From Phycisphaera sp. (GTDB taxonomy: Bacteria; Planctomycetota; Phycisphaerae; Phycisphaerales; Zrk34), in contig WGMA01000047.1 in the NCBI GenBank assembly GCA_016125285.1, positions 1 through 42,102 on the forward strand: 42,102 bases of DNA. Direction: 5' to 3'. Shown one piece after another: positions 12,558-34,322 of the stretch. A program made the position numbers and the translations under genes. The stretch's first letter is position 1; the number at the start of each line of letters is the position of its first letter. The notes beneath the pieces are model-generated. The model worked only from the letters and a program-made list of their open reading frames with translations, had not been told where the DNA came from and ran no database searches.

Positions 12558-12827
12558 ATGCGAACCACACGAATCGAACTCGACGGCAGCGCCGGGCACG
12601 TCACCATCGAGCGGCCCGCCGGCCGGCCCAACATCTGCATCGCTTCGATCGTCCGCCAGCCCCGGCAGGGGCAGCGGGCGTGGATGGTTTGGGACGTGCC
12701 GGCCGACATCGGCGCCGACGCGTTGTTCCAGATCGCCACCGAGGTTCAGCGGCGCACCGACGGCTCCCGCGGCACCAACAGCATGATCCACGACTACTAC
12801 CGCGACCTGCGGCGGTTCGCGGACTGA
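12558..12827 (+). CDS. Unknown phage protein (89 aa), plus-strand island
   Basis: An 89-residue protein MRTTRIELDGSAGHVTIERP with alternating beta pattern, then RAWMVWDVPADIGADALFQI and a helical C-terminus (SMIHDYYRDLRRFAD). I do not recognise a family. AAAGGAG sits 6 bases before the ATG. A weak promoter (TTGAAA at 12478, 17-bp spacer, TGATGT) and a TGAAAA/TTTTCA hairpin lie 60-80 bases upstream. It is the first of four plus-strand genes between two minus-strand operons. Confidence 0.7.
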   Translation: MRTTRIELDGSAGHVTIERPAGRPNICIASIVRQPRQGQRAWMVWDVPADIGADALFQIATEVQRRTDGSRGTNSMIHDYYRDLRRFAD

Positions 12828-17224: not shown

Positions 17225-19738
17225 TCACGCACGGTGCAGCCTCCAGACCGCGCCGTGCTTGCGGCCGGCGCTGGGATCGATGTCGATATACGCCCCGTCC
17301 ATGACGCGCCGGCGGTACAGCCGCAGCTTGTTGCCGACCTGCCGGGGCGTAGGCGCCCGGTGCGGCGGGCAGCCGACCATCGATTCGAGGGCGGCTCGCA
17401 TCGCGGCGCTGTCCTCGTCGTTGGAAAACAGGTCGCCCGCCGCCCCGGGATACAGGCGGCGCAGCAGCGCCGAGACCACCACGCCCTCGTTGGACGGGTC
17501 GTACGACTTCCAAGCCGAAAGCAGCTGCTCCAGCGTGTCGGCGGTCGTGTCGGACGTCTCGGCGAGCTTCGCCCGCGTCAGGCACGGGTCGGGCATGCCG
17601 GCCCAGACGATCGCCTGCCGCACGACGTCCGACCAGCCCTCGAAGCTGCCGTACGGCGTGAGCGACTGGTCCGGCCGGCCGCAGCGCAGGTACGCCGACA
17701 GAACCGTCAGCGCGTCGCACAGCAGGCGGGGCCGGTTGGCGTCGATCCACTCGACCAGGTCGGGGTGCAGGAACCCCGTGCGCTCCTCGGGGCGCTCCTG
17801 CATCGCGTCGAGGCGGACGTGGATGATGCGGCGCGCGGTGTCGGCCGCCACCTGCACGTTGTTGCCCGTGGCGTACCACGACGGCGTCAGGGGCAGGTCG
17901 ATCTCTTCGCTGCGCCCGAGGATGCGGTCCTTCCAGCGCGTGGTCGTCAGCGCCCGGTCCAGCGCGTCGTTGCCGAAGGCGCCGTCGATGTTGTCGAGCA
18001 TGACCATCCGGTCGCCGGCGATGGCGATCGCCGTGATCTTCTTGCGCATCTCCTCGGGGTCGTGGGCGTAGCCGCCGGTGGGCATTTCGCGGCCGAGGAC
18101 GATCCGCCCGATGGTGTGCCCCAGCAGCCCCTTGCCGGCGCCGGCGATGTTGGCGTCGAGAAGGAACAGCGGCGACGGCCCGCGGAACGCGTACCGCGCC
18201 AGCGGCGTGAGCACCGACGCAAGCCAGGCGGCGCGGTGTTCGTCGCTCTTGAACGGGAAGTCGTGGACGACCTCGAGCAGAGACTCGATCGCGGCCTGCG
18301 CGTCGTCAACCGTCGCCTCGGGGTGCACCGACGGGAACTCGACCTTCGACGACGGCTCGTACATCACGCCGGTCTGCTCGTCGTAGCCGCGCGTCTGAAA
18401 GACCGTGCCGTCGGGACGCAGCACCGGGGCGTCCGACACGCCGCTGAGGTACGGGATGCCCGACCACTCCCCGCGAGCGTCGATCGCCGAGACAAGCCAG
18501 CCCGTTGGGTGCGCCGGCTGCTGCTCGCCGTCGCGGTTGATCTTCACGAATCTCGCCCAGCGTGTGATCCGCTCGCGGAGGTTCGCCGGCGGCAGCAGGT
18601 TGATCACCGGCGAGCCGTCCTGCCGCTTGATCTGGTCCTCGGGGAACTGCGTGCGGATGATCCGCACGAGCACGCCGCCGCGCTGGAACACGCCGGGGTC
18701 GGCGCGCAGCGCCACAACCGTCTGCTCCACGACGCGGTACTCGTCGGTGTCGATGACGACGGTCGGGCGAGAATCGTCGGCGCCCACGTCGGCGCGCCGG
18801 GGCGCGGCCCGCCGCCTTGTCTTCCGCGGTTTGTATTGCTTCGTGACCCGCGACAGCGCCTTGGCAATCAGGTCGCGGCCGTACGTGCTGTCGCCTCGCG
18901 GCTCGTCCCACTTGTCGCGGAACAGACCCGAACGTCGGTACAGCCGGTCGAGTTGGTCGGGATCTTTCGTGTAGTACGCCAGCGTGAACACGATCGACGC
19001 GTCGGATTCGCTGCGGGAGTTCGACGCGTAGTCCCACTCGCCGGCCCACAGGCGTCGGAACTTCTCGGCGTTGGCCGTGCGGCGGCCGAGTGCGACGTCG
19101 ATGATTTCGTCGTCGGTGAGTGGCGCGGCAGGCCGGGTCGGGCTGTTCGGGGTCGGTGGCGCTGGCGATGTCACCGCGTCGTCGCCGAACACCTCGACGT
19201 AGATGTCGTGGACGACATCGCCGCGAGCTTCAACGTTCAGCGGCGATCCCGACAACCGCCGCCCGGTCACCGTGAAGAACCGGTGCGAGTCGTACATCTC
19301 GATCTCACCGTTTTCGACCCGCGTGCGGCAGCGGTCGCCGGGCTTCGATCCTTCGACGAACACCTTCACGCCGCGTCCCGATGGGCTGACTTCGGTATAG
19401 GACAGCAGGCAGTCGACAAGCCGGCGTGCCCATAGATCGAGGTGGTCGCCATCCAAACAATCGTCCAGGTCGATCCCGCAGAACGGATCGTCGGCGGTGA
19501 ACACGAACCCGACGCCGTCGAGCGAACTGTCGCCGCGCCATGCCCGCATCGCATCGTCGAACGATCCCCACGTGCCGGGGTCGCTCGGGTCGGCCGCACG
19601 CCCGGACGCGGAATCGATCGGGCGTTTGCAGCGTTTGCCGCCGTCGCCGCGATCTTCGTACCGCCAACACACCCACTGGCGTCGCGCCTTCAGCACGCCG
19701 GGCACGTTGTTCGCGATGTCGCGAGCGCGATCCGTCAC
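17225..19738 (-). CDS. Phage primase-polymerase / helicase
   Basis: An 837-residue replication protein. Residues about 1-190 are a PrimPol domain: GVLKARRQWVCWRYEDR, FCGIDLDDCLDG with the catalytic acids near 88-92, SPSGRGVKVF near 118, and EMYDSHRFFTVTGRRL. Residues about 210-270 resemble the helix-bundle domain of NrS-1-type polymerases (WDYASNSRSESDASIVFTLA, YYTKDPDQLDRLYRRSGLFR). Residues about 480-800 are an SF3/AAA-like helicase: DANIAGAGKGLLGH is Walker A (near 528) and RMVMLDNIDGAFG a Walker B-like strand (near 574). It would prime and unwind DNA at the phage origin. The GTG start overlaps the RecD2 stop as GTGA; an upstream in-frame ATG at 19774 would overlap 40 bases of that gene. 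Confidence 0.85.
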   Translation of the reverse strand: MTDRARDIANNVPGVLKARRQWVCWRYEDRGDGGKRCKRPIDSASGRAADPSDPGTWGSFDDAMRAWRGDSSLDGVGFVFTADDPFCGIDLDDCLDGDHLDLWARRLVDCLLSYTEVSPSGRGVKVFVEGSKPGDRCRTRVENGEIEMYDSHRFFTVTGRRLSGSPLNVEARGDVVHDIYVEVFGDDAVTSPAPPTPNSPTRPAAPLTDDEIIDVALGRRTANAEKFRRLWAGEWDYASNSRSESDASIVFTLAYYTKDPDQLDRLYRRSGLFRDKWDEPRGDSTYGRDLIAKALSRVTKQYKPRKTRRRAAPRRADVGADDSRPTVVIDTDEYRVVEQTVVALRADPGVFQRGGVLVRIIRTQFPEDQIKRQDGSPVINLLPPANLRERITRWARFVKINRDGEQQPAHPTGWLVSAIDARGEWSGIPYLSGVSDAPVLRPDGTVFQTRGYDEQTGVMYEPSSKVEFPSVHPEATVDDAQAAIESLLEVVHDFPFKSDEHRAAWLASVLTPLARYAFRGPSPLFLLDANIAGAGKGLLGHTIGRIVLGREMPTGGYAHDPEEMRKKITAIAIAGDRMVMLDNIDGAFGNDALDRALTTTRWKDRILGRSEEIDLPLTPSWYATGNNVQVAADTARRIIHVRLDAMQERPEERTGFLHPDLVEWIDANRPRLLCDALTVLSAYLRCGRPDQSLTPYGSFEGWSDVVRQAIVWAGMPDPCLTRAKLAETSDTTADTLEQLLSAWKSYDPSNEGVVVSALLRRLYPGAAGDLFSNDEDSAAMRAALESMVGCPPHRAPTPRQVGNKLRLYRRRVMDGAYIDIDPSAGRKHGAVWRLHRA

Positions 19739-21894
19739 GCCGCCTCGCCCTCCTTGCGATCGCGCTTCGACCACATCGACAGCAGCGTTCGTCGCGCCAC
19801 CGTGCGGTTCTTCTTCGCCGCGTTACGAATCCCCCAGCGGTCCCCAACCAGCACGCACGTCTGCGACGCGCGCGTCACTGCCGTGTACAGCCAGTTGCGA
19901 TCGGCGAAGTAGTGGGACTTGTGGCAGATCACCACGACGCAGGGGAACTCGCTGCCCTGCGCTTTGTGAGCCGTCAGCGCGTACGCCAGATCGACGTTGT
20001 TGAGCCTTTCCCCGCCGACCGTCTTGACGCCCGATCCTTCGAAGTCGATCAGGTAGTCGTTGCCGTCCATACCGACGACGAAGCCGATCGTGCCGTTCAT
20101 CACGCCCAGCGTGTAGTCGTTGGACGTCTGGATGACCTTGTCGCCAAGCGTGAAGCGGCCGCGGACGTCCCCGTGGATGATCAGCTGCATCGCCTTGTTG
20201 ATGTCGCGCGTCCCCAGCGGCCCCTTGTGTGTGGGCGTGAGGACCTGCACGTCGCGGATCGGGTCGTAGCCGAGCTTGTCGGGGATCTGCGTGAGCACCA
20301 GATCGCGGATGTACGTTTGGATGTGGTGCGCTTCGGCGAAGCGATCAACGACCGCCCATCGTGTCGTATCGTCCGCCTCGGACTCGCGAACTTCGCCGGC
20401 GAGTACGGCGGCGCTGTTGGCGCGGAGCACGCCGGCCTGACGGAACACGCGGTCGAACACGACGGTCGGGACCAGCCCGTGGTCGATGACGTCTCGCAGC
20501 ACGTTGCCCGGTCCGACCGGCGGCAACTGATTGTGATCGCCGACCAGAACGAGACGGGTGTGGTCGATGTCGACGCGCCGCAGCAGATCGGCCATCAGCA
20601 GCGTGTCGACCATCGATACCTCGTCGACGATGATCATGTCGGCGTCCACCTGCTCGACGCCGAATTTCGAGCCGTTGTACTCGAGCATGCGGTGGATAGT
20701 CTGGGCCTCGACGGACACGCCGTACTTGCCGCGCATCACCTGCTCGATCCGCTTGGCGGCCTTGCCCGTCGGCGCGCACAGCTTGACGCGCTTGCCGGCG
20801 TCGATGAGCGATCGGGCGATATGGGCGACGACGTACGTCTTGCCCGTGCCGGCGCCACCGCTGATCACGCACACGCGGTGCGATAGCGCCGTGCCGAACG
20901 CCTCGGCCTGCCGCCCCTCCAACCCAACCCCGGAACCCCCCCCGGAACCAACACCACCCCCGTGAACACCACCCCCATCGCCACCGAACAGCGGCGCGTC
21001 CTTCGCCCACCCATGACGCGCGAACGTGTCGAAGATGAGGCGCTCGGCGTCGAACAGCGAGCGTGTCGTGATCGACGTGTTTTCGGCGACCACATGTTCA
21101 CCATCGAGCAGACGCTGGCCGGCCTCTCGGATCAGCTGATGCGAATCCATCGAGTCGAGCAGGAGCAGGTCGTTGGCGAAGTGCACAAGGTCGCTGCCTG
21201 CCGTCCACGTGTGCCCGCTCTTGATCTGCTCGCGCAGGCAGTGCATGACGCCGGCTTCGACGCGACCGGGATGATCTTTCGCCAGACCGGCGGCACGTGC
21301 GATCTTGTCGACGCGTTTGAACCCGTACCCGCGCACATGCTCGATGAGTTTGTACGGGTCGGCGCGCAACACACTGCCGGCGGCGTCCCCGTAGATCTTG
21401 ATCAGCACGTTCATCTGGTGGTGGGTGAGCCCGAACCCGGCGAGGAATCCCCGCAGGTCGTTCTCCATGGCGTTGGCGATCCACGCCGTCTGCAGCGACT
21501 CCAGCGTCGACATCGGAACGCGCAGCTTCTCGCGGAGTTCGTCGATGCCGTTGCGGATGAGATCGTCGAGGCGTTTGGAATCGCCGGCGTACTCGACAAT
21601 CTTGTTGGCCGTGGCGTCGCCGATCCCCACGAACGCCGGGTGCGACGACAGGTAGTGTTTCAACCCATCGGCGCTCGGCGGCAGGTCGTACCGCAGCTTC
21701 TTGACCACGAATTGTGGGCCGTACTTCTGGTCGATGTGCCATTCACCGTCGGCGGCGATCACGTCGCCTTCGGTCGCGCAGAACTTGCCGCGGAACCGCA
21801 CGCTCTTGCCGTGGTCGGTGTCGATGATGCCGGCGCTGAACTTCGGCGACGCGAAGTGCACCTTGCCGATCGTGCCTCGGATGGTCCTAGTCAC
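19735..21894 (-). CDS. RecD2-type SF1B DNA helicase
   Basis: A 719-residue helicase. The N-terminus is an OB-like/RecD2 domain (TIRGTIGKVHFASPKFSAGI); the middle has helix-hairpin-helix motifs (SHPAFVGIGDATANKIVEYA) and ADPYKLIEHVRGYGFKRVDK. Helicase motifs: Q-motif region GLEGRQAEAFGTALSHRVCV, motif I ISGGAGTGKTYV (near 342), Ia LCAPTGKAAKRI, II MIIVDEVSMVD, III LVLVGDHNQLPPVGPG, V-VI YALTAHKAQGSEF and YTAVTRASQTCVLV. It moves 5' to 3' on ssDNA. The GTG start has GGAGG 6 bases upstream and overlaps the ERCC4 stop by 8 bases. A Gly-rich insert (GGDGGGVHGGGVGSGGGSG) just before the ATPase core is encoded by both dispersed repeats. Confidence 0.9.
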   Translation of the reverse strand: MTRTIRGTIGKVHFASPKFSAGIIDTDHGKSVRFRGKFCATEGDVIAADGEWHIDQKYGPQFVVKKLRYDLPPSADGLKHYLSSHPAFVGIGDATANKIVEYAGDSKRLDDLIRNGIDELREKLRVPMSTLESLQTAWIANAMENDLRGFLAGFGLTHHQMNVLIKIYGDAAGSVLRADPYKLIEHVRGYGFKRVDKIARAAGLAKDHPGRVEAGVMHCLREQIKSGHTWTAGSDLVHFANDLLLLDSMDSHQLIREAGQRLLDGEHVVAENTSITTRSLFDAERLIFDTFARHGWAKDAPLFGGDGGGVHGGGVGSGGGSGVGLEGRQAEAFGTALSHRVCVISGGAGTGKTYVVAHIARSLIDAGKRVKLCAPTGKAAKRIEQVMRGKYGVSVEAQTIHRMLEYNGSKFGVEQVDADMIIVDEVSMVDTLLMADLLRRVDIDHTRLVLVGDHNQLPPVGPGNVLRDVIDHGLVPTVVFDRVFRQAGVLRANSAAVLAGEVRESEADDTTRWAVVDRFAEAHHIQTYIRDLVLTQIPDKLGYDPIRDVQVLTPTHKGPLGTRDINKAMQLIIHGDVRGRFTLGDKVIQTSNDYTLGVMNGTIGFVVGMDGNDYLIDFEGSGVKTVGGERLNNVDLAYALTAHKAQGSEFPCVVVICHKSHYFADRNWLYTAVTRASQTCVLVGDRWGIRNAAKKNRTVARRTLLSMWSKRDRKEGEAA
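20928..20972. repeat. Composite of dispersed 9-mer and GTGTTCAC repeat, copy 6
   Basis: CCCCGGAA and CCCCCGGAA are followed by CCAACACCACCCCCGTGAAC ACC, the inverse orientation of the other copies. The whole stretch encodes the Gly-rich linker of the RecD2-type helicase. Confidence 0.65.
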
Positions 21895-22336
21895 GGCTCA
21901 CCTCCACGATCGACGCGAGGCGCACGAACATGCGGAGGAAATTCTCGGTGTATCGGTGCGCGGCCTGGCGGCTGCCGCACCAGATCACCGGGACGTTGAA
22001 CGCATGTTGAATGCGGATGGACGCGCCGAGTATGGACGCCGGGGACACGTCGCGGAGGGACTTCCGCTCGTATCCCCTTAGCACCTTGTCGAGGTCGGCT
22101 TCGACGACCACGCACGCGCGGTCGAGAGACTGGAGGCGCAGCAGTTCGGCGTCGAACCTTGCCGCGTTGTGAATGACCGTGCCGACGAAGTCGCGAAGGC
22201 TCTTTCGCTCCACGGCGACCCGGCGTTCATGCCCGAGTACTGAATAATCCCCGGCGTCGAGCTTGCGCCGGATGCAATGGCACGGGAACTCGTACGCCTC
22301 GGTCTCGCGCGTATCGATGATGATCTGGAAGTCCAT
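21887..22336 (-). CDS. ERCC4-type nuclease
   Basis: A 149-residue protein consisting of an ERCC4/XPF-like nuclease domain: MDFQIIIDTRETEAYEFPC near the N-terminus, DAGDYSVLG, then RRVAVERKSLRDFVGTV. The DTRE, GDY and VERK(S) motifs supply the metal-binding acids and lysine. Such small phage proteins cut branched DNA or process recombination intermediates. AAGGA lies 8 bases before the ATG at 22336. It overlaps the start of the RecD2-type gene, so the two are translationally coupled, and its partners in this operon (helicase, DUF669 protein, recombinase-like ATPase) point to recombination-linked replication. Confidence 0.9.
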   Translation of the reverse strand: MDFQIIIDTRETEAYEFPCHCIRRKLDAGDYSVLGHERRVAVERKSLRDFVGTVIHNAARFDAELLRLQSLDRACVVVEADLDKVLRGYERKSLRDVSPASILGASIRIQHAFNVPVIWCGSRQAAHRYTENFLRMFVRLASIVEVSRD

Positions 22337-22487
22337 GGCAGCGTCCTTGCTGTGAGCGGTCGAAATCAAGATGCCCCGGGGCGGCCGGGGGCGGGCGCGG
22401 TCTGGCTCGAGATCCGCGGGGCATCTGTGGCCCCAAAGTGGTCCCAGCGCGTGCCGGCCCGCCCCGGCCGGGGATGAGAATGAGCGA

Positions 22488-23033
22488 TCAGAACGGCGTA
22501 TTGCCCGGATCGTGATCCGCCGGCGGCCGGCTGGCGCCGGTCCCTGCCGGGACGTTCAGCCGCTTGTTGAAGTACACGTTGGCGAACTCGTCGCGCGTCT
22601 TCTTCGTGACCTCCAGCGTCAGGTCCAGCAGCGAGTCGAGGTGGTTGGGCAGGTCGCTGAAGCGGCCGAGCTTCAGGCCGAGCGTCTCGAGGTCGCCCTT
22701 GATGAAGCCCAGCGTCTTCTCGTTGATCACCGCCGTCTTGAAGATGTGGCGCCCCTCGTGCGGGCCGCTGATCACGACCAGGTCCCACTTCAGCGCGTCG
22801 TTGCCTTTCGACGTGCGGCCGGGCTTGACCGTGTGCACCTTCACCTGGTACTTGCCGTCGGGCACCTCGTCGTGGTCGACCGCCTGCGCCGCGGCGTACT
22901 CGTCGTCGTACTGCGACAGGTCGCCGTCGTACGTGTCGCTGGGGTCGCCTCCGGGGCCGGGGGCGTCGAAGGCGCCGCCGGGCTGGGGGTTGTCACGGGT
23001 GGGTGTGGTGGTTGTGGTGTTCGGTACGTTCAT
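22488..23033 (-). CDS. DUF669 protein, probable ssDNA-binding
   Basis: A 181-residue protein. Residues 1-45 are Thr/Asn/Pro/Gly-rich and disordered; residues about 60-165 match the DUF669 pattern: VPDGKYQVKVHTVKPGRTSK, ALKWDLVVISGPHEGRHIFK, TAVINEKTLGFIKGDLETLG and LTLEVTKKTRDEFANVYFNK, then RLN. DUF669 proteins occur in phages beside recombinase-like ATPases and are thought to bind ssDNA like SSB. AAAGGA precedes the ATG by about 11 bases. A GC-rich 150-base gap separates it from the ERCC4 gene. Confidence 0.85.
   Translation of the reverse strand: MNVPNTTTTTPTRDNPQPGGAFDAPGPGGDPSDTYDGDLSQYDDEYAAAQAVDHDEVPDGKYQVKVHTVKPGRTSKGNDALKWDLVVISGPHEGRHIFKTAVINEKTLGFIKGDLETLGLKLGRFSDLPNHLDSLLDLTLEVTKKTRDEFANVYFNKRLNVPAGTGASRPPADHDPGNTPF
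22987..23011. repeat. Dispersed repeat, copy 7
   Basis: GGGTTGTCACGGGTGGGTGT followed by GGTGG, in the N-terminal disordered part of the DUF669 gene (encoding TTTTTPTRDNPQP). Confidence 0.5.
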
Positions 23034-23107
23034 CGGTCTGTCCTTTCCTTGTTGGAATGAGATTGGTTGGGTTGGTCTGAATGGGGTGATTGGCGGTGCG
23101 AGTCGGG

Positions 23108-24868
23108 TCATTCGCTGCGCGTAAACGCTTCGACGAACGCGCCGTAGTCCAGCGGCATCACCTCGGGCAGCCTGCCCGTGCGGTCGCCGGCCTCGTAGGT
23201 GGGGTGGGGCTTGGTGCGGATGACGCGCTCGACGACGACGTTGCCCGCCTCGTCCTTGCGCTGCGCGGTGTCGCAGTAGAGGATCATGTCGACCAGGCCG
23301 AGCACGACGTGGCGTGCGCGGTCCGGCAGGCTCGGCTGCACACGCGTGTACGGGCCGGTGCGCGTCTTGACCTCTTTCTCGGTGGCGTGGGAGATGAGGA
23401 TCAGGCCGTACGGCAGGGACGCCAGCTTCGTCAGCACGCGGTGCCACTCGTTCTTGACGAACGCCCAGCCCTTGCCGTGGTCGAGGTCGCCCTCGTACTC
23501 CACGCCGTGCTTCTTGCAGACGTACTCCGAGCAGTACTTAAACGCGTTGTCCACCGTGTCGATGACGATCGTCTGGAACTCGTGCTTACCCGCGCCGACC
23601 AGGCGGCAGGCCTCGAGCAGGTCTTCCCACGTGTACGTGGGCACCTTGTACACCTCGAGCTCGCTCAGCCCCGGCTCGCACTCGAAGAACAGGGCGTCGG
23701 GGAAGCGGGAGGCGAACGTGGAGTTGTGGACGATGAAGTCGTTGGCCACGAAGTTGTGTGTTCCGGCGACCTCCAGGTCGTACACCGGCTCGACGCCCAG
23801 CGGCTCGATGCAGCGGATGCGATCGAACAGGACGGCGCCCGGGCGGTCGAGCTGCGTCTCGGCGGCGCGGATGTTGTACAGGGCGCGCCGCAACTGCTCG
23901 GCTCTCACCGCCTTCTCGCCGACCAGCGGGATGTTGTCGATGAACCGAAGGATGTCGGCCTTGGCCGCGACGTACAGCTCGGCGCCGTAGAGCTTGCCGT
24001 CGATGTAGCGGTCGCGGATGACGCTGACGATGCCGAACCGCAGCAGCAGGTGCTGGACCTGGCGGACCAGGCGGATCGACTTGGAGCTGTACGACACGCG
24101 GTGCCGCTCGACGCTGCCGTCGCAGGTGAACAGGCAGCCAAGGAACAAGGCCAGGCGCGACCGCTTGGCGGTGAACACGAAGTCGGGGATGAACTTCTCG
24201 CCGGATCGCACCCCGTCCAGCCCCACCTTCCGCAGGAAGCCCAGCACGTTGTTGCGGTCGCCGCGGCGGCCCTTGATCCGCGCGGCGGGCACGCCGGCGC
24301 TGCTGGTCAGCTCGCTGAAGTCGGCGCCGACCGCTTCCACCGCCTGCTGGAAATCCTCCATCACCACCGGGTCCGACTTGGTGAACAGCGGTGACGAGGC
24401 GCCCAACGACCCGTCGGCGATCAGGTACGCCAGGATCTTCATCCAGTGGCGGTTTGTGTTGCACCCGCCGAACAGGCCGGGGTACTCGGCGACCACCGCC
24501 ACGCGGTCGTTGGGCTCCAGGTCGCTCAGCGGCTTCCACCCCTCCCGCGTCAGCAGCGGGTGGTTGCCCGTCGCCTCGATGACGCGGCCGGTCTGCGTGG
24601 TCAGGCGGTAGAGCTGATCGGCGGGGTTGCGGATGTAGTCGGCGGGCGTGGCGCGGCGGATCACGCCGGCCGGCGCCATGGTGTGCACGTCGCCGTCGCG
24701 CCGCTCGATCATGTCGGCCAGCGTGCGCGGGCAGCCCGTCTGCGGGTCGTAGAGGATCGTGCCGCCGCCGAGGCACTTGCCCGCCTTCGGCACGGAATAT
24801 AAGAGGATGCTCTTCGACGACAGATCGGTGTTCGGCTTGGTCGGCTCGCTGGGCAGTTGGACGGGCAT
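23108..24868 (-). CDS. Phage AAA/RecA-fold ATPase (AAA_24, Sak4-like) interrupted by an intein
   Basis: A 586-residue precursor. Without the intein (residues 32-382) the host protein is 235 residues: LPSEPTKPNTDLSSKSILLY, then a Walker A SVPKAGK/STFASRFPD that the intein splits between K31 and S383. After it come YTWEDLLEACRLVG, FQTIVIDTVDNAF (Walker B), KGWAFVKNEWHRVLTKLASL and GLILISHATEKEV. The AAA_24 family in phages acts in recombination, often as a Sak4-like annealing ATPase. GGAGG sits 8 bases before the ATG. It lies between the DUF669 and nuclease genes. The ATPase would be inactive until splicing. Confidence 0.9.
   Translation of the reverse strand: MPVQLPSEPTKPNTDLSSKSILLYSVPKAGKCLGGGTILYDPQTGCPRTLADMIERRDGDVHTMAPAGVIRRATPADYIRNPADQLYRLTTQTGRVIEATGNHPLLTREGWKPLSDLEPNDRVAVVAEYPGLFGGCNTNRHWMKILAYLIADGSLGASSPLFTKSDPVVMEDFQQAVEAVGADFSELTSSAGVPAARIKGRRGDRNNVLGFLRKVGLDGVRSGEKFIPDFVFTAKRSRLALFLGCLFTCDGSVERHRVSYSSKSIRLVRQVQHLLLRFGIVSVIRDRYIDGKLYGAELYVAAKADILRFIDNIPLVGEKAVRAEQLRRALYNIRAAETQLDRPGAVLFDRIRCIEPLGVEPVYDLEVAGTHNFVANDFIVHNSTFASRFPDALFFECEPGLSELEVYKVPTYTWEDLLEACRLVGAGKHEFQTIVIDTVDNAFKYCSEYVCKKHGVEYEGDLDHGKGWAFVKNEWHRVLTKLASLPYGLILISHATEKEVKTRTGPYTRVQPSLPDRARHVVLGLVDMILYCDTAQRKDEAGNVVVERVIRTKPHPTYEAGDRTGRLPEVMPLDYGAFVEAFTRSE
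23723..24775 (-). mobile_element. Intein with LAGLIDADG homing endonuclease at the Walker A site
   Basis: A 351-residue intein from C32 to N382 of the precursor, with S383 as the first C-extein residue. Splicing block A is CLGGGTILYDPQTG; block B TGNHPLLTREGW has the TxxH histidine; the C-terminal blocks are LEVAGTHNFVANDFIVHN then S. Two LAGLIDADG-like helices are present: KILAYLIADGSLG near 145 and LALFLGCLFTCDGSV near 240, so the homing nuclease looks intact. Class 1, Cys/Asn/Ser chemistry. It sits exactly inside the P-loop (GK/ST), a favoured site because the sequence is highly conserved. Confidence 0.9.
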
Positions 24869-24895: not shown

Positions 24896-26032
24896 TCAGA
24901 ACGGTGAATCGATGTCGTCGTCGAGTCCGTCGGTGAGTCCGGGGGCGAGTCCGGGGGTGCCGATCGAACTGGTCAGCTCGATCAGTTCCTCGTGCGGCGC
25001 GACCGACTCGAACAGGTTGTCGCGGACGTTGGGGTTGAAGCCGGACTGGCAGTACGGCAGGTACGGGCAGGGGCGCTGGTACGAGAAGCAGTTGGACGTG
25101 TTCAGCAGCCACTTGCCGCGCCGGCGCGCGTCCAGGTACTGCTGCGTGACCTCCCAAACTTCCTCGGTGAGCAGGTTCATCCGGTCTTCGGATAGGAACA
25201 CGACTTCGCGATGGAACGCGCCCCCGGAATCCGTCTTGGCGTACCAGTCGGCCAGACGGGCGCGGAACTCGTCGTCGGTCTCGGGCAGCTGGCGCTTCGC
25301 CGTCGACTTGCCCGACTTGTTCTTCGCGGCGAGCGCGGCGCGTCGCTGTTCGTATTCCACTTCGGTCTCGCCGGCCTTCTGCTGCAGGCGGGTCTTAAGC
25401 AGCACGTTGTAGATGACGCCGACGATCGGATATCCCAGCTCGCGCAGGCAGTGGCTGTACAGCGCGATCTGCGTGTCGGTCCACAGCTTGTCGAGGTAGT
25501 TCGAATCCAGCACCGACGCGGTCTTGTGCTCGAGCAGGTACAGCTCGCCGTTGAGCTTGACGATGCCGTCGGCCTTGCCGGCCATGACGAAGGTTTGGCT
25601 GACGCGGCCGGTATCCGGGTTGCGGATCGGGCAGAGGAATTCCTTTTCCACCTCCACAACCTCGAACTCTTCCTTGGGATACCGGGCCGCGTAGCCTTCG
25701 AACATGGCACGCGCCAGATGATGCTGATGACGCTGGACGGGGTCGGCGGCGCGGTTATTAAAATCCCCGTCGATGTAGTCGAGCGTCGAGAACAGGCGCG
25801 CCGTGGGATCGGTCGACGGCGACAGCGTGTACCACCGCTCCAGCGCCCCGTGGATCACGCTGCCGAACGCCAGGGCGTCGGGGCGCTGCGGGCGTCGGAT
25901 GTGATCGACATAGCGGTGCTTGTACTTCCTCGGGCAGTTGCGGAAGGTGTTCAGCGCGCTGTACGTGAGCACCTGCCGGTTGCCGATCGCGGGGCTCGTC
26001 TCTGCGGGTGTGTCGTTCGTGATGGTGTGCAT
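24896..26032 (-). CDS. PD-(D/E)XK nuclease, RecB/Cas4-like with Fe-S cysteines
   Basis: A 378-residue RecB-family nuclease. LTYSALNTFRNCPRKYKHRY near residue 25 and FGSVIHGALERWY are typical of the family. The catalytic core is VMAGKADGIVKLNGELYLLE then HKTAS, i.e. D near 152, E-x-K near 166-168; QIALYSHCLRELGY follows. Four cysteines, one near residue 33 and three near 309-322 (NTSNCFSYQRPCPYLPYC), match a Fe-S cluster. The C-terminus (GTPGLAPGLTDGLDDDIDSP) is acidic. It would trim DNA ends for recombination. ATG 26032 is preferred over TTG 26050. It is the first gene of the long minus-strand operon. Confidence 0.9.
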   Translation of the reverse strand: MHTITNDTPAETSPAIGNRQVLTYSALNTFRNCPRKYKHRYVDHIRRPQRPDALAFGSVIHGALERWYTLSPSTDPTARLFSTLDYIDGDFNNRAADPVQRHQHHLARAMFEGYAARYPKEEFEVVEVEKEFLCPIRNPDTGRVSQTFVMAGKADGIVKLNGELYLLEHKTASVLDSNYLDKLWTDTQIALYSHCLRELGYPIVGVIYNVLLKTRLQQKAGETEVEYEQRRAALAAKNKSGKSTAKRQLPETDDEFRARLADWYAKTDSGGAFHREVVFLSEDRMNLLTEEVWEVTQQYLDARRRGKWLLNTSNCFSYQRPCPYLPYCQSGFNPNVRDNLFESVAPHEELIELTSSIGTPGLAPGLTDGLDDDIDSPF

Positions 26033-26182
26033 GGCCGTGTCGCTTCTCAAAACGGCGGCCCCCGCCCCGGAATTCCGCCCCGGAAGTCCGGGTGGAGCGT
26101 CCGGCGGGGTGTTGGGGGCCGCCAGGGTTGTTCGGTGTCTTGGTTCCGGGTGTTCCGGGGTCGGACGCTCTGCCCCTCACTG

Positions 26183-31018: not shown

Positions 31019-32194
31019 TCAATGATATTCCGCTGCCGGCCGCCGAATGCGGATCGGGATGCCCTCCGCGGCGCTACTCGCAACGTCGAGCACATACCCG
31101 CCGCCGCCCGCGCCGGACATCTTCGCGCCAAGACCGCTGGCGGCGATGGACTCGACCTGGCGCAGGATGTGCGGCGGCGCCATCGCGGGGAACATCTCCA
31201 GTTGGGCATGGAGCGACGCGGTAAGCGACTCACCGAGCGCCGCGGCGTTGCGCGATTCGATCGCGCGCCAGCAGTTGTCCGTGGCGGCGGCGAGGCGCTC
31301 GGCCGACGCTGCGCTGGGCCGCATGTTCGCCAGCGGATCGAACGATTCGTCGCGAGCGTTCAGCGGCACGAGCCGCAGCACGGATTCGAGCCACGCAAGC
31401 GTGGACTCGTCGATGATCGACGCGATCGCCTGCGGCCAGTATTCCCCGGCGTAGTTCAGCCGGTTGACGCCCGGCAGCAGGAGCCCGAGGTGATCCTGCG
31501 AACCGCTGACATGCGGTGACCTTCCCGGGGCGTTGTCGTACGCGAAGAGCATCCGCGCGTGGCGCACTGCGTCGCCGGTTGGCATCGCACCGCCCCACAG
31601 TTCGATCGCGCTGTTGCGGCTGGACGCCGCGAGGCCGGAATGCTGGGCGAATCCTTCGCCCGCTTCGATCGACCCGACGATCACCGGGCCCGGATGGAGT
31701 TTGGAGACGAACGGCTGGTCGAGCCAACCCCCGGCGATCTCGATGCGGAATGGGAATAGCAGCCGCTGGCGGACCGCCGACGCGCTGGTCGCCGCGACGC
31801 CGTCGCCGGGCGTGCGTTCGAGCACGACGTACTCGATGCCGAGTGCCTCGCAGAGCGATCGCTTCTCGGGCTTGTCGCCGTCGTCGTTGACCACGAACAC
31901 GTCGGGGCGGACCGCCCGCAGTTCCGGCTCGAAGTCCAGCCACCCCGAGCCGCTTGCGACCCGAGCGTCGTGCACGTAGCGGATCGCGCGGACGACTTCC
32001 AGTCGCTGACGCTCGTCGTTGACCGGATACCGCCCCTTGAGCCCGCGGATGGTCTCGTCGGAGCCGATGACCACGTGCAGGCGACCGTACTCCGCCGCGC
32101 GCCGCAGGAACTCGACGTGCCCGGCGTGCAACAGGTCGAAGCATCCGCTGGCCAGCACGGCGCGATCGGTATTCACGTTGGCCTGCTGAGTCAC
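31019..32194 (-). CDS. Nucleotidyltransferase fused to GHMP-type sugar kinase
   Basis: A 391-residue bifunctional protein. Residues about 10-145 are a cytidylyltransferase-type domain: ASGCFDLLHAGHVEFLRRAA with the HxGH motif (H23-H26), VVIGSDETIRGLKGRYPVND and TSASAVRQRLL. Residues about 150-391 are a GHMP kinase: FRIEIAGGWLDQPFVSKLHP is motif 1, HSGLAASSRNSAIELWGG motif 2, DHLGLLLPGVNRLNY, and GAKMSGAGGGGYVLDVASS motif 3. Similar to HddA- and fucokinase-type kinases joined to an RfaE/HddC-like transferase. It would phosphorylate and activate a sugar, possibly a heptose, for surface glycans. The start is GTG with AGGAA 9 bases upstream, 13 bases past the previous stop. Downstream of two glycosyltransferase genes. 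Confidence 0.85.
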   Translation of the reverse strand: MTQQANVNTDRAVLASGCFDLLHAGHVEFLRRAAEYGRLHVVIGSDETIRGLKGRYPVNDERQRLEVVRAIRYVHDARVASGSGWLDFEPELRAVRPDVFVVNDDGDKPEKRSLCEALGIEYVVLERTPGDGVAATSASAVRQRLLFPFRIEIAGGWLDQPFVSKLHPGPVIVGSIEAGEGFAQHSGLAASSRNSAIELWGGAMPTGDAVRHARMLFAYDNAPGRSPHVSGSQDHLGLLLPGVNRLNYAGEYWPQAIASIIDESTLAWLESVLRLVPLNARDESFDPLANMRPSAASAERLAAATDNCWRAIESRNAAALGESLTASLHAQLEMFPAMAPPHILRQVESIAASGLGAKMSGAGGGGYVLDVASSAAEGIPIRIRRPAAEYH

Positions 32195-32207
32195 GGGCGC
32201 GTTCCTG

Positions 32208-32987
32208 TTAAGCAAGACGCTTGACCTTGTGCCAGATCCCCGGCGATCGAATCTCGGTTGGATCGAATTCAACGTCGCCAGACAGCGTACGTCCCGCGTC
32301 CGCCGAGATCGGCTGCGCCACGAATCCAAGATACTCAGCGACCGATCCCAGCCGAAGCTCACAGAAGACCGGCAGCAAGTCAGGGGCCGACAGCACCAAT
32401 TCGGATATCTCGCTCAGTGCCCGATCAGAGAATAGCGTCCCCGCCAGCGGCGCCGCGCCAGCCGCGTGGCAGGAAAGCCAGCCAGGAAGCTGCCGCATCT
32501 CTTCCGGATTGAACCAGTACCACTGCCACTTGCCCGCCCCGCGACTAGCGTTGTATACAGCGCTGGCGGCAACATCTGCATCCCAGACCTGCGCGTAGAA
32601 GTCCCTAATCGACGTGTTGCAGTGCACGTCCCACTCGACCACGATCCAGCGGCGCGCCCGCTCGGCCCGCTGGCGATACCACAGGTAGATCGCCAGGTCT
32701 GTATTGCGCCAGATCAGGATTTTCTGCTTCTCGGTGAGCGTCGCGCCGACGTCGCCGAGTGGCGCGAACAGATCGGCGAGCCACGGCGCCTGCTCGACCA
32801 GTTTTCGCGTGTCGTATCCGCCGGGCAGCACCTTGCCCCATTGGCTGATGGTCACGACGGGACAGCCGGGGTTGTGCTCGCGGACCAGTTCCAGATGCCG
32901 CTGCGTGACCGGATCGGTGTCGTGGTGCAGGAACACGATGCCCAGTTCCGCGGGGCCGGCGATACGATTTGCGGGCGTTGTCGACAC
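32208..32987 (-). CDS. Putative glycosyltransferase-like protein
   Basis: A 259-residue protein starting AGPAELGIVFLHHDTDPVTQ, then RHLELVREHNPGCPVVTIS, KILIWRNTDLAIYLWYRQRA and RRWIVVEWDVHCNTSIRDFY. The EWDVHCNTS segment resembles a GT-A DxD site; it has no signal peptide and no membrane span. Flanked by a GT1-like glycosyltransferase and a sugar-activating fusion on the same strand, it probably transfers a sugar to a surface glycan. The family is not one I can name. The start is GTG; ribosome binding site weak. Soluble and cytoplasmic by sequence. Confidence 0.6.
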   Translation of the reverse strand: MSTTPANRIAGPAELGIVFLHHDTDPVTQRHLELVREHNPGCPVVTISQWGKVLPGGYDTRKLVEQAPWLADLFAPLGDVGATLTEKQKILIWRNTDLAIYLWYRQRAERARRWIVVEWDVHCNTSIRDFYAQVWDADVAASAVYNASRGAGKWQWYWFNPEEMRQLPGWLSCHAAGAAPLAGTLFSDRALSEISELVLSAPDLLPVFCELRLGSVAEYLGFVAQPISADAGRTLSGDVEFDPTEIRSPGIWHKVKRLA

Positions 32988-33005
32988 GGCCTCGATTCTA
33001 CTCCG

Positions 33006-34217
33006 TCACGCCAGGCCGTGGGTGCGCAGGAACGCGTCAAGGTACTCGGCGACGCGCTGCTCGTGGGGCGTATCGTGCTCGTGGCGTGCGGCGAACCGCT
33101 CGGCGGCGGCGCGGAAGGACGGGTCGCCGATCATCTGCTCGAGCATCGGCATCGCGCCGTCCGTTCGCATGTGCGGAAGCGTCAGCGAGACGCCGAGCGC
33201 GTCGGTGCGGCGGGCGAACAGCAGCTGCTCGACGGTCAGGGGGATCTGCAGGATCGGCACGCCGAGTCGAAGCAGGTCGCAGCTCGCGCCGTGGTTGCCG
33301 TTGAGGATCGCCAGATCGCACGTGCGGCCGACCTGCTTGATGTCCAGGTGCTCGGCGGCGAAGCGCATCGACGGGCCGGTGAAGCGGTCGCGGACGTTCG
33401 GCGGGATGCCATCGGGGGTGATCAGCGTGGGCCAGCCGATCTCGAACAGCGTGGCCAGCAGTTGCTCGATGCCGGTGAACGGCTTGAGGTAGGCGAAGAT
33501 GCGCGGCCCGGGGTAATCGGGCCACTGCGGTAGCTTGCCGGCGGGCGGATCGGGCGGCCCGAGGTAATCGACACCGTCGCGCTCACCGAAATGATCGAAC
33601 TCGCCGTAGGTGCCCAGCGCCGCGCCGTCCGCCTGGTCGTAGATGTCGCCGAGTTGCTCAAGCGGCGGAATGTCGAACTCGCGCAGGACGCCGTTGATCG
33701 TTTCGACGACGCGCGACTCGTCGGCGATCGCTTGATTGCGCTGCGCGTCGTCCATCGGCCGAAGCGGCGCGAGCGGCGTGCCTGACTTCGGGCGGAAGAA
33801 GCCGGTGCCGAGGATGAGTCGCTTCGTCTGGTAGCCGCGCATCGCCAGCAGCGCCGCGGGGCTGTGCTCGAATACAACCAGTTCCGGTTCGACGCTGTCG
33901 AACAGCTCGCGCCACGCGCTGATCATGGTGCGGAGCGTCGCGGGCTCGGCGATGCCGGTGTTATGCAGGATGTGGGCGTAGCACGTCGGCCTGTCGATCG
34001 GGACGTGATCATCTGGGGCGGGGCGGCGGACCTCGTGCAGTTGGACGGGCGCGCCTGCGAAGAACCGCCGAGCACGCTCACGATCGCGGACCGCCGCGGT
34101 GACACTAAAGCCGCGCTGCGCCAGAGCCGCCACCCATGGCCGAACGAGACACAGGTGGCCCGAGCCGACGCCCAACTCCCAGCAGACGAGGCTGTGTCGC
34201 ATGGGGCGACTATCCAT
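33006..34217 (-). CDS. GT1-like glycosyltransferase (GT-B fold)
   Basis: A 403-residue protein. The N-terminal half begins RHSLVCWELGVGSGHLCLVR, RPWVAALAQRGFSVTAAVRD, typical of the acceptor domain of MGT/UGT-like enzymes. The C-terminal half has GPRIFAYLKPFTGIEQLLAT, then DLAILNGNHGASCDLLRLGV and PILQIPLTVEQLLFARRTDA, LGVSLTL: the donor-binding region (NGNHGxxxxxLxxGVPxLQIP). ATG 34217 (MDSRPMRHS) is chosen; ATG 34202 is equally possible. It is the first gene of the minus-strand sugar cluster and would transfer a sugar from a nucleotide donor. Confidence 0.85.
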   Translation of the reverse strand: MDSRPMRHSLVCWELGVGSGHLCLVRPWVAALAQRGFSVTAAVRDRERARRFFAGAPVQLHEVRRPAPDDHVPIDRPTCYAHILHNTGIAEPATLRTMISAWRELFDSVEPELVVFEHSPAALLAMRGYQTKRLILGTGFFRPKSGTPLAPLRPMDDAQRNQAIADESRVVETINGVLREFDIPPLEQLGDIYDQADGAALGTYGEFDHFGERDGVDYLGPPDPPAGKLPQWPDYPGPRIFAYLKPFTGIEQLLATLFEIGWPTLITPDGIPPNVRDRFTGPSMRFAAEHLDIKQVGRTCDLAILNGNHGASCDLLRLGVPILQIPLTVEQLLFARRTDALGVSLTLPHMRTDGAMPMLEQMIGDPSFRAAAERFAARHEHDTPHEQRVAEYLDAFLRTHGLA

Positions 34218-34322
34218 AAGCACCCAGCACGTTGAAGGCAGTTCAACTGGAATGTAAGTAGCCAGGGGATTCCGGGCAACCCTCGAGGATCGGCCCGAGC
34301 ACGACACTGCGCCGGCAGGCCC

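Follow-up and report, generated by a model that had tools for sequence, protein, structure and literature searches.

The DNA analysed here, called the window, is a complete 42,102-base contig (WGMA01000047.1) within a 6.09 Mb, 90-contig genome of a Phycisphaera sp. Its minus strand carries a single open reading frame (ORF) of 586 codons, at positions 24868-23108, that has neither a stop nor a frameshift and encodes a Sak4-like phage ATPase interrupted by a predicted intein. The insert spans exactly positions 24775-23723 and encodes 351 residues (C32-N382) between the Lys and the Ser of the Walker A motif. The junctions, marked here by slashes, read GK/C (residue 32 is Cys, YSVPKAGK/CLGGGT) and HN/S (residue 382 is Asn, NDFIVHN/STFASRFP). 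An earlier reading of the letters alone (the sequence-only reading) had placed an intein of this length between these two P-loop residues, and its boundaries are exact to the base. The N-terminal flank, or N-extein (residues 1-31, positions 24776-24868), ends in SVPKAGK and aligns with the intein-less Sak4 of locus L002 and others. The C-extein (residues 383-586 plus the stop, positions 23108-23722) begins with the +1 nucleophile Ser. Once the insert is removed, 235 amino acids of extein remain. They match AAA_24 in Pfam (E 3e-41, residues 383-564) and the Sak4-like single-stranded DNA (ssDNA) annealing proteins of phrog_124 in PHROGs (E 8e-40), in agreement with the Sak4-like host protein proposed earlier. 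We therefore assign the ORF to the Sak4-type phage ssDNA-annealing ATPases, the annealing function being predicted from family membership.

Family models identified the insert as an intein with an endonuclease domain. It matched Intein_splicing (PF14890) with 69 bits (E 5e-19, cut-off 35.8), TIGR01443 for the intein C terminus with 34.3 bits (cut-off 15.6), TIGR01445 for the N terminus with 26.8 bits (cut-off 24.5) and LAGLIDADG_3 (PF14528) with 61.5 bits (E 9e-17). Among the NCBIfam models, those of intein-bearing DnaB, RecA and other proteins also matched, under their whole-protein cut-offs. The residues expected for class 1 splicing are in place. Cys1, at a position where class 1 inteins have Cys, Ser or Thr, was present in 28 of 28 aligned rows, as were T69 and H72 of the TxxH block B (TGNH, intein residues 69-72, positions 24560-24571). 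The C-terminal block HNFVANDFIVHN (intein residues 340-351, positions 23723-23758) ends in H350 and N351, followed by Ser. Two LAGLIDADG helices supply the acidic catalytic residues: LAYLIADG (intein residues 115-122, positions 24410-24433) holds D121, and LFTCDG (intein residues 215-220, positions 24116-24133) holds D219. On these sequence features, the insert is identified as a class 1 intein with a LAGLIDADG homing endonuclease domain, as the sequence-only reading had it. No further inteins were found in the source genome, where PF14890 and PF14528 each match once, in the window copy.

The intein was modelled by itself with AlphaFold2 from the 28-row alignment, and the model had a predicted local distance difference test score (pLDDT) of 92.8 and a predicted template modelling score of 0.91. 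The predicted model shares the HINT fold with solved inteins. Its top solved match was the TliVMA intein (7qsu, Z 32.6, 2.9 A over 311 residues; 7qss, Z 31.9 over 321 residues), and the endonuclease-bearing inteins PI-PkoII and PI-PfuI were also among the best matches. The splicing part alone matched the NpuDnaB intein (Z 24.3, 1.4 A over 138 residues) and the Mtu RecA intein (Z 24.1).

Relatives were gathered by a protein search and a search with the intein alignment, with duplicate contigs merged. Thirteen intein-less Sak4 relatives read straight through the Lys-Ser pair, without a scar, which excludes chance for the insert. The same 13 homologues also rule out the idea that the ATPase has these 351 residues as an ordinary domain, the outcome that had been set beforehand as refuting an intein. 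That idea has in its favour that the insert is in frame and free of stops, but the scarless homologues, the intein family models and the fold match of the predicted model leave it next to no probability. The window Sak4 has Ser in place of the first Walker A Gly (SVPKAGKS); the same Ser occurs in the occupied gene of L138 and in the empty gene of L011, so it is not caused by the intein. One of the empty genes lies in the same genome as the window, on contig C51, and is 76% identical to the window Sak4. Its neighbours match those of the window (exonuclease 71%, single-strand DNA binding protein 62%, ERCC4-type nuclease 60% and exoV 64%), and further homologues are a primase (48-54%), a methyltransferase (69%), TerL (70%) and a portal protein (61%). 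Thus, one assembled genome holds two related prophage-like regions, one occupied and one empty. The codon at Ser+1 is TCN in 12 of 12 occupied and 8 of 13 empty Sak4 genes, a post hoc comparison that ignores kinship (Fisher p 0.039) and gives only a hint of an association with occupancy.

The same intein clade sits at the same Lys-Ser site in at least 12 Sak4 genes, including that of the window; the others are at loci L138, L009, L060, L140, L141, L058, L059, L006, L143, L007 and L008. These counts are lower bounds, the profile scan of genome contigs having kept the best 80 of 477 relatives. L014 is an additional cut fragment with a clade intein. The carriers that are named come from metagenome assemblies, two of Planctomycetota (L058 and L060) and one of Acidobacteria (L059). 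These carriers, together with those on other phage contigs, partly overtake the remark in the sequence-only reading that no Sak4 intein was known to it from a planctomycete prophage. A sister intein (L010, 45% identity) lies in another Sak4/AAA_24 protein. A protein search across 151 genomes gave a match in 40, mostly to the C-extein only, judging by query range; among these, L002-L004, L029-L034 and L054 were opened. A plasmid search returned five records, all weak.

The intein tree was built from the 15 nearest full-span rows plus the 22 that follow them, 37 of 58 in all; in it, the window-type inteins formed one clade with support of 100/99. The extein tree comprised 12 occupied and 13 empty rows, with the long rows L010, L003 and L004 removed; the partial loci L014, L018 and L021 are absent from all trees. 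Mapping occupancy onto the extein tree took at least six changes, and starred branches forced four of these. Grouping all occupied exteins in one clade was rejected (approximately unbiased test, p 5.6e-58). Because occupied and empty exteins interleave, the presence of the intein has been scattered by gain, loss or both.

Several further loci extend this picture. At L023 (4914-7025), on a 157 kb viral contig, a clade intein interrupts a Sak4-like protein with an odd Walker A motif (GPPKTWK/ST). Its C-extein has no Pfam match and a weak PHROGs Sak4 match (E 2e-8); on that match, we dropped the idea of a jump into an unrelated ATPase and regard the protein as a divergent Sak4-like one. A search for an empty-site relative of L023 returned only its own contig. 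L146 (3646-4692) holds a decayed clade intein that has lost the C-terminal His-Asn and has a changed first LAGLIDADG Asp, with flanks that are not Walker A. At L007 (3286-4410), the exonuclease gene adjoining the occupied Sak4 gene is likewise interrupted by an intein, inserted behind the Lys of an EHK motif that is probably the ExK of a PD-(D/E)XK nuclease. In L008, otherwise like L007, the flanking blocks of the exonuclease abut, so that intein site is empty.

Pairs of relatives carry part of the evidence for movement. In the phage pair L140/L141, synonymous divergence (dS) was 0.22 (0.16-0.29) in the intein and 0.81 (0.58-1.16) in the C-extein, and nucleotide identity was 89-95% in intein windows and 62-89% outside them, the rise spanning the intein. 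With intein dS so far below that of the C-extein, the intein appears to have been transferred after the flanks diverged. L009 and L060 share 97.4% of C-extein amino acids but only 69.2% of intein amino acids (nucleotide identity 71-96% in the flanks and 61-75% in the intein), indicating different intein alleles in near-identical genes. The pair L007/L008 leans the same way as L140/L141, with ranges barely apart (dS 0.019-0.073 in the intein and 0.077-0.210 in the C-extein). In L007/L008 and L140/L141, respectively, the ratio of nonsynonymous to synonymous divergence (dN/dS) pointed to selection on the endonuclease (0.090 and 0.095); it was 0.082 and 0.063 in the C-extein, and higher in the N-terminal splicing part (0.34 and 0.26). 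Both D121 and D219 are kept in all 14 clade rows (the 12 carriers, L023 and L010), whereas outgroup inteins keep D121 in 7 of 14 and D219 in 10 of 14. Taken together, the intein clade is apparently mobile and has repeatedly invaded Sak4. The mobility expected by the sequence-only reading is thus borne out indirectly for the clade, through dN/dS, the dS contrast, the catalytic Asp residues and the scattered exteins; this does not extend to the window copy itself.

We consider it probable that the Sak4 Walker A motif holds a self-splicing class 1 intein with a homing endonuclease, a parasite that moves between related phages. For the window copy, we infer splicing, cleavage and homing. The intein would excise itself after translation and rejoin GK to ST, giving the 235-residue ATPase; the unspliced precursor, with its P-loop broken, should be inactive. 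The standard class 1 pathway runs through an acyl shift at Cys1, transesterification to Ser+1 and cyclisation of Asn351. The endonuclease would cut intein-less Sak4 genes at the Lys-Ser codon pair, recombination would copy the intein into the cut gene, and the intein would persist by homing between related phages.

Several observations weigh against this interpretation. The model of the full precursor had a pLDDT of 69, too poor to interpret. The dN/dS values derive from few changes, the endonuclease parts of L007 and L008 being 99% identical, and L009/L060 is saturated for endonuclease dN/dS. All rates come from relatives, and the window intein has no close one, the best among the relatives listed being 65% identical. 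Among the seven outgroup rows that lack D121, five have Glu there, which may also be functional at the first catalytic site. Finally, the C51 site is still empty, so homing has not occurred there, whether through changes in the site, timing or inactivity. This persisting empty site would also be expected if the intein spliced but its endonuclease were dead in the window copy and it were inherited only along with the phage, as would the fairly long end branch of the window intein (0.38 in the intein tree). With both catalytic Asp residues and the predicted fold intact, and no frameshift or stop, we regard a dead endonuclease as rather unlikely, though it is the strongest competitor. Another proposal, already raised in the sequence-only reading, is a regulated switch in which splicing stays slow until a cue such as ssDNA activates Sak4. 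The location in the P-loop of a protein whose family anneals ssDNA suits it, as does precedent: the RadA intein of P. horikoshii needs ssDNA and temperature for fast splicing (PMC5790916), and oxidants inhibit the P-loop DnaBi1 intein (PMC6195587). Yet close relatives, the C51 copy included, manage without an intein, and alleles 31% different reside in the near-identical exteins of L009 and L060, with no sign of a tuned partnership. A redox switch like that of DnaBi1 is further disfavoured because only C1 and C218 are constant among cysteines in the 14 clade rows, leaving no evident conserved partner beyond C218 in the endonuclease part. We judge a switch improbable.

A second intein lineage occupies the same Sak4 site, and it overtakes the earlier remark about novelty further. 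In Lactococcus phages 949 and AM5, an intein lies between the Lys and Thr of Walker A in a Sak4-like protein, the AM5 extein matching AAA_24 and phrog_124. L032 and L034, from genomes of the window's order, have an intein at K/T or K/S of a Sak4-like protein. In a tree, these four inteins cluster separately from the window clade, on long branches (100/100), so the Sak4 Walker A motif is a repeat target. A broader scenario, in which this motif is a hot spot for at least two independent lineages, ssDNA-gated splicing times the recombinase to replication, and silent changes at Ser+1 (AGC for TCN) spare the co-resident sister prophage from homing, strikes us as a long shot. The inteins of L032 and L034 start with Ala; a Cys precedes their C-terminal block and a Trp stands two residues past the block B His, a motif that we take to resemble class 3. 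The AM5 and 949 inteins are 82% identical; AM5 starts with Cys and 949 with Ala, which suggests changed first-step chemistry or a damaged intein.

Both Lactococcus precursors (AM5, L190:1036-3144; 949, L191:853-2946) lack an intein label and are annotated as AAA or hypothetical proteins, and sister records of this protein are annotated as "terminase large subunit" or PhoH. From end to end, the AM5 precursor matches phrog_19299 ("terminase large subunit"), and it is the best full-length match of that family; that label is probably wrong and was perhaps derived from terminase inteins. This suggests that inteins can mislead phage annotation. Among the best 40 of 189 phage records, AM4 and LW81 are listed as close rows alongside 949 and AM5, and Caulobacter and Mycobacterium phage rows match the intein part only, judged by query ranges. 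Two candidate carriers were rejected: the Sak4 of Brevibacillus phage Sundance reads through GKT without an insert, and the intein of MT835482 lies in another protein. In Bacillus phage fHSPT3 (L194:1303-3780), RecA has a 422-residue insert that reads as an intein in the P-loop (GK/C...HN/ST).

The window Sak4 gene sits within a phage replication-recombination block. Its neighbours, also on the minus strand, are a phage exonuclease without an intein (phrog_1218, positions 24896-26050) and a single-strand DNA binding protein (positions 22488-23033), whose phrog_378 match lies inside ORF 22488-23447 and whose start at an inner ATG is our reading. Beyond these are an ERCC4-type nuclease (21887-22369), an exoV/Dda-like helicase (19735-21894) and a primase/helicase (17225-19774), and farther along the window are ParB/methyltransferase, TerL, portal and head protein genes. 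A tRNA-Thr (GGT) lies at 12558-12639, between the TerL and methyltransferase regions. The ORFs at positions 31019-34307 resemble cytidylyltransferase/GHMP-kinase and, weakly, EryCIII; they may be genes of the host or cargo of the phage.

The P-loop, between Lys and Ser or Thr, is a textbook intein site. PMC5050341 terms the Lys-Thr insertion "classic", states that ATP-binding proteins hold about 70% of the inteins of bacteria and archaea, and names no Sak4 in its Table 1 of mycobacteriophage inteins, where 11 hypothetical proteins are unresolved; PMC6195587 reports that the P-loop intein of P. horikoshii RadA disrupts ATPase function. Our literature search, mostly of openly available papers, found no Sak4 intein described in print. 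The TerL1-a inteins of mycobacteriophage terminases share the Walker A site (K/T; PMC5050341) but differ in host protein. A DnaB intein (1mi8) is the best solved sequence match of the window intein (E 5e-14), and in the intein tree 11 of 22 outgroup rows are flanked by what we read as a DnaB Walker A motif, although the extein differs from Sak4. According to PMC6195587, DnaBi1 of M. smegmatis is a class 3 mini-intein without an endonuclease, unlike the window intein with its class 1 features and endonuclease domain. TliVMA combines a splicing domain with a homing endonuclease, as predicted for the window intein, but is only about 21% identical to it and resides in a V-ATPase. The 949 and AM5 inteins share the Sak4-like Walker A motif (K/T) but belong to a separate lineage. 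The natural pairs described here, occupied and empty or with two alleles (the prophage-like regions of one genome, L009/L060 and L140/L141), could be used to study homing and the cost of splicing. With the Sak4 Walker A motif hit by two lineages and the P-loop site a classic one, the window intein adds to a known type: it is real and ordinary in kind, a new member whose host protein is little described, bringing phage Sak4 recombinases to the proteins that host mobile inteins in the P-loop.
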